From: a virus
Strand: one strand, 5' to 3'
DNA: 24,042 nucleotides
Virus record (IMG/VR): IMGVR_UViG_3300025286_000140
Span: 1-24,042 of that record
Shown here one piece after another: positions 4,360 to 21,653 of the stretch. The notes under the pieces are model-generated. The model was not told the DNA's origin. It ran no database searches and saw only the letters and a program-made list of their open reading frames with translations. Both the position numbers and the translations under genes were made by a program. How positions within the stretch are numbered: position 1 is the stretch's first letter; every line of letters starts with the position of its first letter.

Positions 4360-4981
4360 ATCAAAAGCCCGTCCTTGGCACGCTTTAACTCCCGAAAAGG
4401 TAGAGGCTATAAATTCTCCAGGCCGGTATACGGACGGGGGTTGTTTGTCTCTTGTAGTGCGACGGGCAAAAAACGGCGATCACTTATGGAAGCATTGGGT
4501 GCTTCGAACCTCGACACAGGGACTGCGCGTAGACATGAGTTTAGGACCACTGAAAATAGTGTCTTTAGCCAAGGCCCGCGTGCTGGCTTATAAATATCGT
4601 GGGCTAGCGAAAGAAGGGATAAATCCTATTCTCTACCGTCAAAAGGAACGAAAGGCAAAAATGACTGAAGACAGGACTGTCGCCACAAAACTTGAGCTTT
4701 CCTTCACGGCGAAACAGATTTCCTACCTCGCGCACACGAGTTGCGCGTCTTTTGTCGAGGATCAACCGGGGCGTTTTGAAATTCATGACGTTTCCGAGAA
4801 CGAACATCTCATGGGGTCGGGTTGGCTGCACTGGCTTGAAGGCGACTCCTATCTGTCGGCCATCGCCATGCAGCAAGCGTGTGTTGCGCGGGGCTTCCAC
4901 GCCTCCATCCTGATCGATGACGCCGATGACGAAAAAAATGAATGGGTAGTGTGGACCGACGATCCCCTGGATATGAAATAA
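4352..4981 (+). CDS. Integrase arm-binding domain (DUF4102-like) fused to an unrelated tail; no catalytic core
   Basis: A 209-residue protein. Residues 11-100 match the N-terminal arm-type DNA-binding domain of P4-like tyrosine integrases: LTPEKVEAI, PGRYTDGGCLSLVV, a HWVLR strand, MSLGPLKIVSLAKARVLA and the end of the helix LAKEGINPI. Full integrases (about 400 residues) continue with a core-binding domain and an R..HxxR..Y catalytic domain. Here residues 104-209 are instead an acidic aromatic segment (GSGWLHWLEGDSYLSAIAMQ, EWVVWTDDP) with no integrase signature, and no catalytic domain lies in any frame downstream. An internal ATG at 4661 (Met104) has a plausible ribosome site, so the tail may once have been, or still be, a separate cassette gene. 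Preceded by GAGGTGAAAA. A DNA-binding regulator or integrase relic are both possible. Confidence 0.7.
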   Translation: MRKSKARPWHALTPEKVEAINSPGRYTDGGCLSLVVRRAKNGDHLWKHWVLRTSTQGLRVDMSLGPLKIVSLAKARVLAYKYRGLAKEGINPILYRQKERKAKMTEDRTVATKLELSFTAKQISYLAHTSCASFVEDQPGRFEIHDVSENEHLMGSGWLHWLEGDSYLSAIAMQQACVARGFHASILIDDADDEKNEWVVWTDDPLDMK

Positions 4982-5097
4982 GTGAGAGATTAATTCGTCT
5001 TAGAAAGACAGAAAGTAGAGAGGTAAAGCCTATGGTCTGAAACTGGTTCGCAGTAGAAGTCTAATTTTTTATTAATCAAACTACAGGAGTAGTTAAA
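4982..5097 (+). promoter_or_regulatory. Leader region before the 5098-6236 pair
   Basis: A 116-bp gap. It contains GTCTTAGAAAGAC (4998-5010, a 5-3-5 hairpin) overlapping TAGAAAGACAGAAA (5001-5014), which is also at 2492-2505. An AT-rich run precedes the AGGAG ribosome site of 5098. I found no convincing -35/-10 pair; this may be a processed leader inside one long transcript or a weak promoter. Confidence 0.35.
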
Positions 5098-5724
5098 ATG
5101 GCTATAGCAGCAATTAAACCGATTTCTCAGTCACTCATGACTGTGCAGATCGTCGGCATTTCGCCGTTAGTGCAACATAAGTGGTCTGAAAAGGCGTTAC
5201 AGATGTTGCGTGATAAGCACGCTGGGATTCGGACAAAGAATCGTGACGTGCGGGAACCTGAGCAAGAGTTCCGTGACGCAGCTTACGTCTGCGAGGACGG
5301 TTCTTTTGGTTTCCCGGCGGGAGGCATCAAAAAATGTCTCATCAACGCCGCGCACAAAGACATGGGGTTGGAAAAAACCCTGCTTCGCAAGAGCCTCTTT
5401 GTCCGACCGGATGATCCAGCCAACAACCTCGTGATCTTGACCACGACCGATCCGGTCATGCGTGAAGATATCGTGCGCGTGGGTGCCGGATCAACTGACC
5501 TACGCTACCGTCCCGAGTTCAGAGAGTGGTCTATTCTCTTGAACCTGGAAGTGGACGCCGACGCGTTGACCAGTGATGCCGTTGTGTCGCTGATCGATCG
5601 CGCGGGGTTTGGTGTAGGGCTGGGGGAAATGCGGCCTGAGAAAGATGGGGAATATGGACGCTTCCGCGTTGATACCAACGTGGCAGTGAACATCGTGCCT
5701 GTCGAAACGAGGTTGGCCGCGTGA
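5098..5724 (+). CDS. Conserved phage protein with C-terminal GEMRPEKDGEYGRF motif
   Basis: A 208-residue protein with AGGAG 8 bases before the ATG. It carries ISPLVQHKWSEKALQML near the N-terminus, DGSFGFPAGGIKKCLINAAH in the middle, DIVRVGAGSTDLRYRPEFREW, and a C-terminal glycine-rich run GFGVGLGEMRPEKDGEYGRF. I recognise this pattern as a conserved phage and prophage protein without assigned function. The combination of ferredoxin-like strand order and a late glycine-rich loop makes a RAMP-like nucleic-acid-binding fold conceivable, but that is speculation. Its stop overlaps the GTG of the next gene, and the pair precedes the pentamer array, so all three may act together. Confidence 0.6.
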   Translation: MAIAAIKPISQSLMTVQIVGISPLVQHKWSEKALQMLRDKHAGIRTKNRDVREPEQEFRDAAYVCEDGSFGFPAGGIKKCLINAAHKDMGLEKTLLRKSLFVRPDDPANNLVILTTTDPVMREDIVRVGAGSTDLRYRPEFREWSILLNLEVDADALTSDAVVSLIDRAGFGVGLGEMRPEKDGEYGRFRVDTNVAVNIVPVETRLAA

Positions 5725-6236
5725 ATCCGGTCTACTCAACTGTCGCCTGGAAGCAGGGAACTGTTTTCAAGACAGATGCACGGACGGCGTTTCAGGAAGT
5801 TGAGCGTCTCAATGCACAATTCGGGGGCTCTGCCCCCGATGGTGCGTTGGTAACGGCCAGCAAGCCTGTGACCGCCCCACTGCATAACGAATTTGAGTGG
5901 AGCAACGCCAAGGCTGGAAAGCTGTATCGCTTGGATCAAGAGAAGAAGATCAAACGATCTCTTGTCGTGATTAGTGAGTCCAGTGTGGACGACCATCGAG
6001 CGCCTATTGAGATCCGCTTGTATCAACGGACGAAGATCAAGGACAACGGCGATTCTCGCCGTGTGTACATGAACACGTTTGAAATGCTGGAGGATCCTGA
6101 AGGGCGTGAGCAATTATTGGCCCAAGCGCGGCGCGATTTGGAAATTTTCCAAAATCGTTACCGTGTATTGACCGAGCTATCTGGCGTGCTGGAGCCGATT
6201 CAGATTTTTCTGAGGTCGGCAACGCACGCAGCTTAG
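5721..6236 (+). CDS. Conserved phage protein of unknown function
   Basis: A 171-residue protein starting with GTG at 5721, which overlaps the upstream TGA (GTGA). Its signature is LHNEFEWSNAKAGKLYRLDQ followed by basic and hydrophobic residues (KKIKRSLVVI), then a long C-terminal helix (REQLLAQARRDLEIFQNRYR). The FEW..xxAxxxYRxxQ pattern recurs, as far as I recall, in small phage proteins of unknown function. The N-terminal sequence (DARTAFQEVERLNAQFGG) is also helical. It is coupled to 5098 and is the last gene before 850 bp of non-coding repeat array. Confidence 0.6.
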   Translation: MNPVYSTVAWKQGTVFKTDARTAFQEVERLNAQFGGSAPDGALVTASKPVTAPLHNEFEWSNAKAGKLYRLDQEKKIKRSLVVISESSVDDHRAPIEIRLYQRTKIKDNGDSRRVYMNTFEMLEDPEGREQLLAQARRDLEIFQNRYRVLTELSGVLEPIQIFLRSATHAA

Positions 6237-6247
6237 GCTCGTTTGGG

Positions 6248-7080
6248 TAGGTATGGGCGAGGCTAGGCAGTCGAGTCGAGTTATGGTAGTCGAGGTGTGA
6301 CGGGGTTCGGTGTTTAGCGTCCAGGTTAGTCAGGGAGTGGTCCGACTAGTTAGGGCCTCGTTTGGCATGGCAGTCAAGGTATGGCAGCGGTATGGCAAGC
6401 TCCGACAAGGCACGGTAAGGCACGGCAGTCTCGGTTTGTTCCGTTGCGTTACGGCACCGTACGGCTGGGAAGGGCTGGGTTTGACTTGTCCTGGTAGGGC
6501 TCGGTCTGGCAGTCGAGGTGTGACGCGGGGCGTTTGGGAAAGACATGGTGCGATCAGGTACTTTTTGGCAGTTACGACGTGACACGGTGGGGTGACGTAG
6601 GGCTCCGTTGGGCAACGTTTGGCAGTCTCGGCTTGTTCCGTCGCGTTACGGCATCGTATGGCTGGATAGGTATGGGCGAGGCAGTCATGATTGGAAATGA
6701 CGTGTTCCGGGGTGATTTGGCGAAATTCGGCATGGTTTGGCAGTCAGGGTTTGTTGGGAAAGGTAAGTTCAGGTCCGTCCTGGTTAGGCATGTTAAGGCA
6801 GTCGGGTTATGGCAAGTACGGCTTGAGTGAGGTTTGGCGAGTTCGGTTTCATAAGGGTTTGGCATGGCAGTCGAGGTGCGCTCGGTTGAGGCAGGGCCGT
6901 TTTAGGTGGGTTTGGTTGGGATTCGGCAGTCTCGGTCCGGTTACGCTCGAAGTGGTAGGTTGGGGCGAGGTATGGCTAAGTTTGGCATGGCAGTCAAGGT
7001 CAGGCGAGGTTTGGCTCGGAATGGTTTGAATACGGTAAGGCATGGTTGGATTGAATGTGGCGAGGTGAGGCAGGGTTTTA
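6248..7080. repeat. G-skewed pentamer array with regularly spaced GGCAGTC markers
   Basis: About 830 bp without a credible gene. GGCAGTC occurs at 6266, 6369, 6424, 6508, 6621, 6680, 6739, 6797, 6866, 6925 and 6989, with variants at 6285 (GGTAGTC) and 6567 (GGCAGTT). Spacing is often exactly 59 bp; most intervals equal 5n+4, and the bases between fall into 5-mers such as GGCAT, GGCAA and GGTAT. Larger near-copies exist: 6360-6380 equals 6980-7000 (21 bp), 6857-6877 differs at one base, 6248-6263 equals 6667-6682, and 6424-6468 matches 6621-6665 with four transitions. At 6961-7020 there are 26 G and 9 C on the plus strand. Open frames here have low-complexity Gly/Arg/Trp products and are not counted as genes. 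Confidence 0.9.
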
Positions 7081-7092
7081 GTGGAGGACAAT

Positions 7093-7263
7093 ATGTCATG
7101 TCATGAAAATGAAGCGTTAGCAGAACAGCTCATGGACCATTACTTAGGTCTTGGGTATTCCGAAGTGGAGGCGGAGGCATTGACCATACAAGATATGGAT
7201 TTTGCCGACCGGCCTACCGTTGACGAAACGGAGACCGGCGGCAACACCAAGATAAAAGGATGA
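7093..7263 (+). CDS. Small acidic hypothetical protein
   Basis: A 56-residue protein, MSCHENEALAEQLMDHYLGL then GYSEVEAEALTIQDMD. A GTG at 7081 extends the frame, but GGAGG six bases before the ATG at 7093 decides the start. The helix-Gly-Tyr-helix arrangement (YLGLGYSEVEAEAL) resembles a UBA-like or short helical-hairpin motif; this is only a visual impression. The gene directly follows the pentamer array and converges on the leftward replication module, 21 bp from the nuclease stop, with no intrinsic terminator between them. Confidence 0.55.
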   Translation: MSCHENEALAEQLMDHYLGLGYSEVEAEALTIQDMDFADRPTVDETETGGNTKIKG

Positions 7264-7284
7264 CGTTTGACCGTCGCGTACAGT

Positions 7285-7662
7285 TTAGCGGATTAGGGCC
7301 TCGTGCAACAACTCCCAAGTAAAGGGGGAAGATAGTTCGATAGTGTGCGGGGAAGTCCATTTAAGTCCTTTTATTTCACTTAATGAGCCTACGCGGAAGA
7401 GTCGGATGGTTTGATTTTTTCGACCGAGGACGAAGCATTTGCCACCGTGCATGGCACGTTGGGCGAGCCATGATATTTGCATGGGGCGCAGGCCTAGTTG
7501 GTTGCCGCGAACCGCTTTGAGCTCAACCCAGAATTCTTGACCTTCGAAACAACCGTTGAGGTCAGGAACCCCCTGCGCTGTACTCCCGGTCTCGATCCTC
7601 TGCCAATGAATCTTCGGCAGATGGTCCCGTACCAATCTCCACAGGTTCGACTCGCTTGGCAT
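7285..7662 (-). CDS. PD-(D/E)XK (VRR-NUC-like) endonuclease
   Basis: A 125-residue nuclease. MPSESNLWRLVRDHLP carries the conserved early glutamate (E4). GVPDL (31-35) supplies PD with Asp34, and WVELKAV (45-51) supplies E47 and K49, completing the PD-(D/E)XK site. Q62 in LRPMQISWL is the extra conserved glutamine seen in VRR-NUC and resolvase-like members. Phage members probably cut branched or flap DNA during replication and recombination. The frame is open to 7764, but the ATG at 7662 with AGGA 7 bases upstream gives the usual family N-terminus. Its first 101 bases overlap the end of the helix-turn-helix gene in another frame. It is the last gene of the leftward replication module. Confidence 0.8.
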   Translation of the reverse strand: MPSESNLWRLVRDHLPKIHWQRIETGSTAQGVPDLNGCFEGQEFWVELKAVRGNQLGLRPMQISWLAQRAMHGGKCFVLGRKNQTIRLFRVGSLSEIKGLKWTSPHTIELSSPFTWELLHEALIR

Positions 7663-19085: not shown

Positions 19086-21653
19086 TCACCTCGGTCGGTT
19101 GGGTCGGAATGCATTTTGAAAGGGAGCGACGTTCGTTTGGAACGCCAAAGGATTCATGATGCCCGTCTGCTGTGTCTGATCGACGCCCATCTTACCATTG
19201 AGCAATGTGGAAGCTTGCGGGGTACCTACTAGACCCCCCTGATTGCCTCCACCTCCTGGCGGTAAGAACGGGGACGGGTATTCTAAGTTACTGGTGGAGC
19301 CCACGGGAGCAGTACCCCATGTGCCGTAGTCCATGGGGTCAGGGTAATCGCCATAGCCTGGTTGCATACCCCCCTGGCCATAGGCCATGTTCTGGAATGT
19401 CACAGGCTGATTACCTACAAACGGTGCCCAGATGGATTGCTGAGAAGCCGCAAGATCTGACATCGGACTACTCGCTGCGTCCCCGAAGACAGAGGTACTG
19501 CCTGTGGTGACGTTAGGCGCTTGGGCATTTGTAAAGAAGTTGTTCAAGTTGTCCTGCGTTTGCTGAATTTGTTGTTCTGTGGCATCGGCTTCGTATTCTG
19601 TTTGCGCGTCAGCATATTGTTGTTGCAGTGTGGCCAATTGATCCTGCATGGCCGCGTACTGGTCCTGAAGTCCAGCTACATCGACACCACCCAGAGCCTC
19701 ACTAATCTGAGTGCCTACACTGTCGGACGTGGCGTAACCTGCCAAACGGTCTTCCAGATCCAAGAGCGTAACGTAATCAGCAAGGTCACCACTCGCTATG
19801 CCCCCAGTCATCTCCGCAATGATTGCTCGGATCGCGTCAGGGTCTAAGCGACCTTCGGCTACCAGTCCACGGATTTCATCGGGGGATAATTGCTCGCTTT
19901 GAATAAGCGCCTTGATGTGGTCATCAGACAGTAGGCCTTGGTCGATGAGTGACTGAATTTCATCTGATGAGAGCGCAAAATTCTGGATGAGATCCATGAT
20001 CTCGTCTTCAGACTGGAACTGTTCCGTGGCTTGCGTGATCCACGTAGTAATTTGATCTTCGGTAAAGGTGCCAACATCAATAAGAGCTTGGATATGATCT
20101 TCAGTCAGTTGTCCCGCGGCAATCAGGTCTTGCACCTGATCCTCGGTCATCTGTCCTGATTCAATCAGATCCCAGATCTCATCCTCACTGAGGAAACCTT
20201 CGGTGGCCGCAGTGATCCAGCCGTCAATGGCCTCTTGAGTGAATTGCCCACTCTCTACAAGCGCAGCGATCTGATCTTCAGACAATACGCCATCAGCAAT
20301 GAGTGCCTGTACTTCTTCTTCCGACAGCGAACCGTCAGCGATAGCGTCCCAGATCTCTTGTTCTGATAAGACATCGGCTTCGCCTAGCCACTCGGTGAAT
20401 TGATCTTCAGTGAACTGTCCACTCTCTACGAGAGCGGCTACCTGATCTTCAGACAGTACGCCATCGGCAATGAGAGCCTGGACGTCAGCCTCAGATAAAG
20501 AGCCGTCGGCGATAGCGTCCCAGATTTCATCTTCAGTGAGCATTCCTTCTGTTGCTGCACCGATCCACTGATCTACTTCGTCTTGGGTGAGGCTACCTGC
20601 CTCCACCAATTCATTAATTCGCTCTTCGGAAATGAGATTGGCCCCGACATAGGCTTCCATGTCTGCGGCACTCAGCGTGTCTACATTGTTGGCAATGTAG
20701 TCTTCGACGATTTGTTCAACGTCTACTGCAGTGGTGGGGTCTCCTGGACCCATCCCTGACATATCGCCACCTGTGGGACCGGCAAAGTCCATGTCGGCAT
20801 ACACTTCGTTCATGATGTCAGCGATTAACTGCTCACGATCAAAGGTGGGTTCCTCTGCGTCTTGTAGCGCAGCTATCTGATCCTGCAGCCCCGTGGGATC
20901 GAAACCTTCGGCACCTTCTAATGCAGCGAGTCTGCCTTCCATTCCCGTGGGATCGAAACCCTCTCGGGCCTGTAACGCAGCTATCTGATCCTGAATCCCT
21001 GTGGGATCGAAAGCTTCAGGGAGCCCTGCAATACCCGCAGCCGTTGCCCCTTGGGCAATCTCCTGGACTTGTTCTGGAGTCATTCCAGGAGGTAGGCCCT
21101 CGATAGCTTGTCCAATTTGACCGGACACATCTTCTGCAGTTAGACCGGGAGGGAGTCCTGCAATGGCTTGTTCAATCTGAGACCCTACCCCTGCTTCAGC
21201 TTCAGCCAAGCGTTGTTCAAGGGCATCGATGCCCCCTTCCAGTTGGCTTGGATCAAACTGCTGCTCTGCAATCAGTTGCTGTACTTGGTCCCGAGTTAAG
21301 CGGTTCGCGTCAATGAGTGCTTCGACATCGGCTTGAGATAACGAGCCGTCAGCGATGCGTTGGTTAATCTCATCGGCAGATAGGAAACCTGCGGTCGCTG
21401 CGGTGAGATCCTGGGCACTAACGCCTGCGGGGATTCCGCTCATGGCATCTTGAATCTGAGCACTGATGTCCTCAGGTCGGATACGCCCTTCCTGAGCCGC
21501 GGCTACGATGCCGCTGATGTCTTGGTCAGTGAGCATGCCCTGCTCTTGGAGGTACTGCGCCACGTCCTGCATGTTGGTACCGGCAGGAGCCATATTGGCA
21601 GGCATCCCAGGACCGGGACCTCCGAAACCAGTTGGACCGAAACCATTAGCCAT
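19086..21653 (-). CDS. Large acidic protein with 14-residue helical repeats, probable virion protein
   Basis: An 855-residue, strongly acidic protein. Residues about 340-612 consist of 14-residue units of the form xxGxLSEDxIxxLI, grouped in fours into ~57-59-residue blocks (371-427, 428-486, 487-545, 546-612), most blocks opening SEDEIWD and the first three closing near a Trp. Earlier there are three FDPTG units with AAL helices at 215-268, two AGLPPGLT/EGLPPGMT units at 165-192, and isolated units from 40. Residues 660-705 are a Gln-rich coiled coil, and the C-terminus is Gly/Pro-rich and basic (FQNAFRPNRPR). Repetitive helical decks suggest an elongated scaffold or tail/ejection component; I do not know a named family. 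It overlaps the upstream gene by 8 bases. Confidence 0.65.
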   Translation of the reverse strand: MANGFGPTGFGGPGPGMPANMAPAGTNMQDVAQYLQEQGMLTDQDISGIVAAAQEGRIRPEDISAQIQDAMSGIPAGVSAQDLTAATAGFLSADEINQRIADGSLSQADVEALIDANRLTRDQVQQLIAEQQFDPSQLEGGIDALEQRLAEAEAGVGSQIEQAIAGLPPGLTAEDVSGQIGQAIEGLPPGMTPEQVQEIAQGATAAGIAGLPEAFDPTGIQDQIAALQAREGFDPTGMEGRLAALEGAEGFDPTGLQDQIAALQDAEEPTFDREQLIADIMNEVYADMDFAGPTGGDMSGMGPGDPTTAVDVEQIVEDYIANNVDTLSAADMEAYVGANLISEERINELVEAGSLTQDEVDQWIGAATEGMLTEDEIWDAIADGSLSEADVQALIADGVLSEDQVAALVESGQFTEDQFTEWLGEADVLSEQEIWDAIADGSLSEEEVQALIADGVLSEDQIAALVESGQFTQEAIDGWITAATEGFLSEDEIWDLIESGQMTEDQVQDLIAAGQLTEDHIQALIDVGTFTEDQITTWITQATEQFQSEDEIMDLIQNFALSSDEIQSLIDQGLLSDDHIKALIQSEQLSPDEIRGLVAEGRLDPDAIRAIIAEMTGGIASGDLADYVTLLDLEDRLAGYATSDSVGTQISEALGGVDVAGLQDQYAAMQDQLATLQQQYADAQTEYEADATEQQIQQTQDNLNNFFTNAQAPNVTTGSTSVFGDAASSPMSDLAASQQSIWAPFVGNQPVTFQNMAYGQGGMQPGYGDYPDPMDYGTWGTAPVGSTSNLEYPSPFLPPGGGGNQGGLVGTPQASTLLNGKMGVDQTQQTGIMNPLAFQTNVAPFQNAFRPNRPR
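19818..20543 (-). repeat. Coding tandem repeats of about 171-177 bp
   Basis: DNA encoding the four repeat blocks of the 855-residue protein. The marker CCCAGAT starts at 20171, 20348 and 20519 (plus strand), spacings 177 and 171 bp. Each block holds four 42-bp units. The two blocks at residues 371-486 are nearly identical (IADGSLSE...VQALIADGVLSEDQ), which suggests recent duplication. Confidence 0.8.

Follow-up and report, generated by a model that had tools for sequence, protein, structure and literature searches.

Viral Interference Programmable Repeat (VIPR) systems were described in a 2026 bioRxiv preprint (PMC13142463, doi 10.64898/2026.04.26.720920). According to its main text, they combine a phage-borne RAMP protein (Vipr) with an accessory gene (vap) and with vrRNAs that contain 9-16 GGY/NN repeats. 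The NN pairs of the vrRNA recognise double-stranded DNA with one base skipped between pairs, which leads to transcriptional repression in inter-phage conflict (PMC13142463). For the type II systems RNA expression, Vipr binding, DNA recognition and repression have been shown by others (PMC13142463). The same main text mentions staggered arrays with overlapping vrRNAs as well as vrRNAs aimed at other VIPR systems, and describes VIPR as related to CRISPR, possibly ancestral to it, and as reading DNA in an interrupted code (PMC13142463).

The DNA analysed here (the window, 24,042 nucleotides) is the whole of the IMG/VR virus record IMGVR_UViG_3300025286_000140. It contains a tract of G-K-Y-N-N pentamers (6237..7076, + strand), which we identify, with a probability of roughly 0.93, as the staggered vrRNA (guide RNA) array of a VIPR system carried by an uncultivated phage; the system does not belong to the type II clade. 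Judged by the main-text description, the window has in common with the staggered kind of VIPR its phage-borne location, a Vipr RAMP gene, a second small gene and a same-strand intergenic GGY/NN array; the one-base-skip rule is also shared, for related arrays. The original prediction knew of no described function for such tracts. This has been overtaken: a module made up of this gene and its array has appeared in print under the name VIPR (PMC13142463), the window's array belongs to a kind first described in 2026, and its function is no longer unknown. A literature search by description of the repeat gave no match; the lead to VIPR was the name of a PDB chain.

The heptamer GGCAGTC was found 11 times in the whole window, all within 6266-6995, together with two variants, GGTAGTC (6285) and GGCAGTT (6567), in agreement with the original count. 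The predicted intervals from 6369 onwards (55, 84, 59, 54, 59, 59, 58, 69, 59 and 64 bp) were all reproduced, and eight of the ten equal 5n+4. When 6237-7080 was subjected to autocorrelation, the check proposed for the predicted periods, peaks were obtained at lags 5 (z=7.3), 10 (z=9.6) and 59 (z=6.3), the highest z at any lag among 500 dinucleotide-preserving shuffles of the same segment being 4.6; a profile without peaks at 5 and 59, which would have spoken against the array, was not seen. Additional peaks were present at lags of 4 mod 5 (39-84), 3 mod 5 (108-128) and 2 mod 5 (187-197), the drift predicted by one 4-base slip per unit. The claimed anatomy was correct: non-coding units of about eleven pentamers plus a 4-base slip that recur in phages. 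The position given for the tract (6248-7080) was right but slightly too narrow: it extends from about 6237, just past the stop of the upstream gene (5721-6236), to about 7076. The ORFs listed inside the tract sit on non-coding array.

The grammar learned by the HMM over the related loci was G-K-Y-N-N, with GKY fixed (G in 95%, G/T in 94% and C/T in 93% at the three positions) and NN near-random. In the related arrays the entropy of NN was about 3.9 of 4 bits within units and 3.5-3.6 bits adjoining the tetramer. By this grammar GGCAGTC consists of a 4-base module, GGCA, and an ordinary GTC-NN pentamer. Because the pentamer following GGCA starts with GGC, GGT or GTT in other clades, GGCA must be regarded as the invariant part of the marker; it accounted for 773 of the 948 four-base modules in the segmented arrays. 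Successive GGCA modules in related arrays are in most cases 8-13 pentamers apart, compared with the 9-16 repeats published for vrRNAs, and the period of about 59 bases arises because eleven pentamers are followed by four bases. Over all arrays, NN was skewed to AT/AA right after GGCA and to TT/AT right before it, and was near-random in the interior. This skew may reflect a start-codon bias of the targets or be part of a processing signal.

HMM segmentation of the window's array, all on the + strand, decoded approximately 13 units. GGCA tetramers, taken as guide boundaries, start at 6266 (the first, 6266..6269), 6369, 6424, 6508, 6567, 6621, 6680, 6739, 6797, 6866, 6925 and 6989, and a GGTA variant tetramer starts at 6285. 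The guide units between them comprise 16 pentamers (6289..6368); nine pentamers plus one irregular 6-base module (6373..6423); 16 pentamers (6428..6507); 11 pentamers with NN = GA GT GC GC TG AA AT GC CA AC TT (6512..6566); 10 pentamers (6571..6620); 11 pentamers with NN = TC TT CC GC AC AT AT TG AG TG GA (6625..6679); 11 pentamers (6684..6738); 10 pentamers interrupted by an irregular tetramer at 6753 (6743..6796); 13 (6801..6865), 11 (6870..6924) and 12 pentamers (6929..6988). The last unit, 15 pentamers with one 6-base module, ends the array (6993..7076). Hypervariable NN and 9-16 repeats per guide are also the hallmarks of the described GGY/NN arrays. The first 10-11 pentamers of the unit at 6428 resemble the unit at 6625: the two guides have 18 of 22 NN bases in common, and over the first eight pentamers they differ only by pyrimidine swaps at Y and two NN changes. 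It looks as if one of them were a re-aimed copy of the other.

No Rfam family matched the array at gathering or permissive thresholds (none up to E=1 in 6200-7300), which also distinguishes it from hammerhead-interspersed VIPR arrays. Its predicted fold was no more stable than those of shuffled sequences (z +1.7; of 20 shuffles, 19 equalled or exceeded it in stability), as expected for an RNA that needs to stay open. Sequences of the type (GGNNN)n are in principle capable of forming two-layer quadruplexes, and the regularly spaced GG could accordingly be viewed as a two-tier G-quadruplex or another structured regulatory RNA or DNA. The structured-RNA reading was rejected on account of this fold result, and no Rfam family matched. 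Moreover, some relatives are built mostly of GTT-NN (L004) or of GCT-NN (L050), pentamers in which the GG runs are missing, and of the explanations considered here this is the most improbable. At the latter locus (L050, 4640-5090) GCT-NN pentamers and a GCCA tetramer (GCCAGTT) replace GGY-NN and GGCA. This suggests that the Vipr of that phage reads a different middle base; related consensus forms are mentioned in the VIPR paper (fig. S17, PMC13142463). Promoter recognition in 4900-7400 found none.

The vipr gene of the window (5098..5724, + strand) encodes a RAMP/Cas7-like protein of 208 amino acids (phrog_4652). The profile of its gene family matched one solved chain, PDB 36pp_D, 'SUSP1 Vipr protein' (E=4.5e-31). 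The AlphaFold model of the window Vipr (pLDDT 94.7) could be superimposed on Csm3 over 163 residues (Z 12.0, rmsd 4.0, VIA-align), and Foldseek matched it to Csm3 and type VII Cas7 chains with E values of about 1e-6. A RAMP-fold Vipr related to the SUSP1 Vipr is thus present. The vipr stop is overlapped by a probable vap (vipr accessory protein) gene (5721..6236, + strand, 171 amino acids), which matches phrog_15946 and has relatives adjoining vipr in 110 loci. The model of the accessory protein (pLDDT 94.8) had no convincing structural neighbours (best Z 5.1 over 47 residues). Both PHROGs are listed as of unknown function, and neither Pfam nor NCBIfam contained a family for either protein. 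On the 3' side of the array there is a small ORF (ATG at 7093, preceded by GGAGG) and, farther away, a group of oppositely oriented replication genes coding for a resolvase/nuclease-like protein, DNA polymerase A, a UvrD-like helicase and an AEP-type primase.

The locus resembles Class 1 CRISPR-Cas effectors (Csm3/Cas7 RAMPs with crRNA) in the RAMP fold and in the predicted use of a repeated protein subunit to hold a small RNA. It differs from them in that the window has no repeat-spacer array or cas operon, the period is 5 nt rather than 6 nt, and the guide is interrupted rather than contiguous. A CRISPR array consists of identical repeats and unique spacers, whereas here the sole recurrent element is the 7-base marker and the units are degenerate pentamers. 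TIGR-Tas systems, as described in the abstract of their report, likewise have phage guide-RNA arrays targeting DNA, but their effector is a Tas protein, found from a Cas9 guide-RNA interaction domain, and not a RAMP (PMC12045711).

Relatives of the 5098-5724 protein were gathered from IMG/VR, GTDB genomes and named phages. They came from Gordonia and Mycobacterium phages, a Felixounavirus, a LES prophage of P. aeruginosa, and contigs of, among others, Streptomyces, Sphingomonas and Lachnospiraceae, and gave a set of 165 loci including the window, in which a few contigs are present twice. A period-5 tract adjoined the gene in 163 of the 165 loci, with a signal above the 99th percentile, and usually several-fold above it, of controls consisting of 17,334 windows more than 2 kb away from the gene. 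The three weakest loci (L064, L090 and L101) are contigs that stop within the accessory gene or after only about 30 nt of array; the loci without a strong tract are cut by contig ends. The proposed search for the grammar, combined with comparison of gene context, placed an array of at least 100 nt beside the RAMP gene in 153 loci, always on the strand of the gene and never on the other, irrespective of whether the array was upstream or downstream of the gene. Blastn of the window array against phages yielded short chance-level matches only, as expected with hypervariable NN, and the window guides shared no more with other arrays than shuffled controls did.

Type II VIPR (SUSP1/P. fulva) has separate units with structured 3' tails, whereas the window array is continuous with its guides joined via GGCA. 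The LES-prophage-like and Felixounavirus-like Viprs formed a separate clade (support 100/100), and in their loci, as in type II, the units stand apart with hairpins between them. The window Vipr fell outside this clade, on which basis it was placed outside SUSP1/P. fulva type II. Tailed separate units were seen at loci L017 and L018, unlike in the window.

Some arrays (L012:3900-5400 and L089:4680-6535) are unusually long, with many guides. Guide arrays also seem to have been annotated as coding in some phages: gp40 of Gordonia phage UmaThurman (L013:4631-4954), annotated as a protein, is an ORF on a pentamer array and probably not a gene, and gp48 of Mycobacterium phage Donkeykong (L015:3465-3851) likewise overlaps an array.

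The one-base-skip code was tested with 687 different units decoded from the arrays, of which 623 had nine or more pentamers; these were scanned over 1.29 Mb of the loci with the arrays masked. At ≥80% identity, reading with a skip of one base gave 108 matches in vipr genes, the sense strand accounting for 96. With skips of 0, 2 and 3 there were 25, 24 and 28, approximately the number expected from the 7.9% share of vipr in the scanned DNA. At ≥85% identity there were 31 matches to the vipr sense strand at skip 1 versus 0, 4 and 0 at skips 0, 2 and 3, although the 31 stem from five guides only and redundant target loci inflate the count; order-shuffled guides gave 0-3. All 31 were in codon phase 0, i.e. 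the skipped base was the wobble position. In the clearest guide-target pairs (19/20, 20/22, 21/24, 18/20 and 17/20) the match lay within one unit of the related array. GGCA was called a guide boundary because these matches stop at GGCA or one pentamer before it. The related arrays thus suggest where guides start and stop in a continuous array. In one instance a guide of a Bacillota prophage (L110:5233-5287) corresponds to the first eleven codons of the vipr gene of another (L108:3968-3999), with 20 of 22 bases matching from the ATG.

These matches reproduce the one-base-skip rule independently, for related arrays against rival vipr genes; the locus and its relatives provide a sequence-only confirmation of the interrupted code in arrays that do not belong to type II, the clade studied by experiment. 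They also bear on the possibility that the array is a double-stranded DNA ladder, a protein-bound repeat serving packaging, partition, replication or recombination with no role for RNA. The length and periodicity of this non-coding DNA and the base-specific constant positions would suit such a ladder. It would leave unaccounted for the near-random NN, their matches to rival vipr genes when read at skip 1, the constant vicinity of the RAMP gene, and the strand rule (153 versus 0, upstream or downstream), and we consider it very improbable. Among the functions originally proposed, a source of non-coding RNA came close, and a DNA ladder, a packaging or recombination site and a transcription barrier found no support.

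Under the VIPR reading, the array and the vipr-vap operon would probably be transcribed together. The small Cas7-like Vipr would form an oligomer on the RNA that follows the 5-nt repeats, in which the constant G-K-Y is gripped and the variable NN is exposed. A run of about 10-13 pentamers between GGCA tetramers would be one guide, whose NN pairs would jointly recognise DNA as NNxNNxNN, one base being skipped per pair. The targets would be rival phages or other mobile elements, where transcription would be blocked. GGCAGTC would be punctuation: GGCA, one base short, would shift the register and produce the 5n+4 spacing. Expression of the window array, cutting of its guides and their targets are inferred. 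Guides that match the vipr genes of rival phages were seen in related arrays, and the boundary reading of GGCA and vipr-against-vipr aiming in these clades are deduced from such matches. We give an even chance to the proposal that the one-base-short GGCA is a guide-boundary code (a processing site or filament end) of staggered arrays, by which a continuous array could be divided into separate guides with no need of tails or ribozymes, and that silencing the vipr gene of competing phages is a recurring use of these arrays.

When the window's own guides were scanned over 1.3 Mb of related loci, none of the skip rules was favoured. Exact IMG/VR scans with five window guide patterns gave two matches, both to one pattern: one in a tail-fibre-like gene (L166), where the skipped bases do not fall on wobble positions, and one in a large ORF (L167). 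Both were rejected as targets, as two matches are near the estimated chance level and the skips in L166 are off wobble. One window guide pattern, allowing up to three mismatches, had no match in 40 related records. A convincing target was thus found neither in the related loci and IMG/VR scans nor in these records. This, together with the irregular modules, would fit a VIPR array in decay, one of the right family that no longer functions in this phage. Several pentamers and modules of the window are off-consensus, for which reason the array is possibly partly decayed, and it is more degenerate than many of its relatives. On the other hand, the vipr and vap frames are open with conserved columns retained, eleven exact markers remain, and the guides at 6428 and 6625 show, in their first eight pentamers, the kind of differences expected of a copy under constraint. 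A loss of function seems unlikely.

Two other repeats were noted in the window. A second pentamer repeat, (GAGTA)10.6, lies toward the left of the record (837-889); it was rejected as a second array, being a plain microsatellite off the G-K-Y-N-N grammar. A 54-bp tandem repeat of 2.9 copies (20861-21017) lies within a long minus-strand ORF (19086-21653), the product of which is a repetitive EI/DAL-rich protein encoded near the structural genes.
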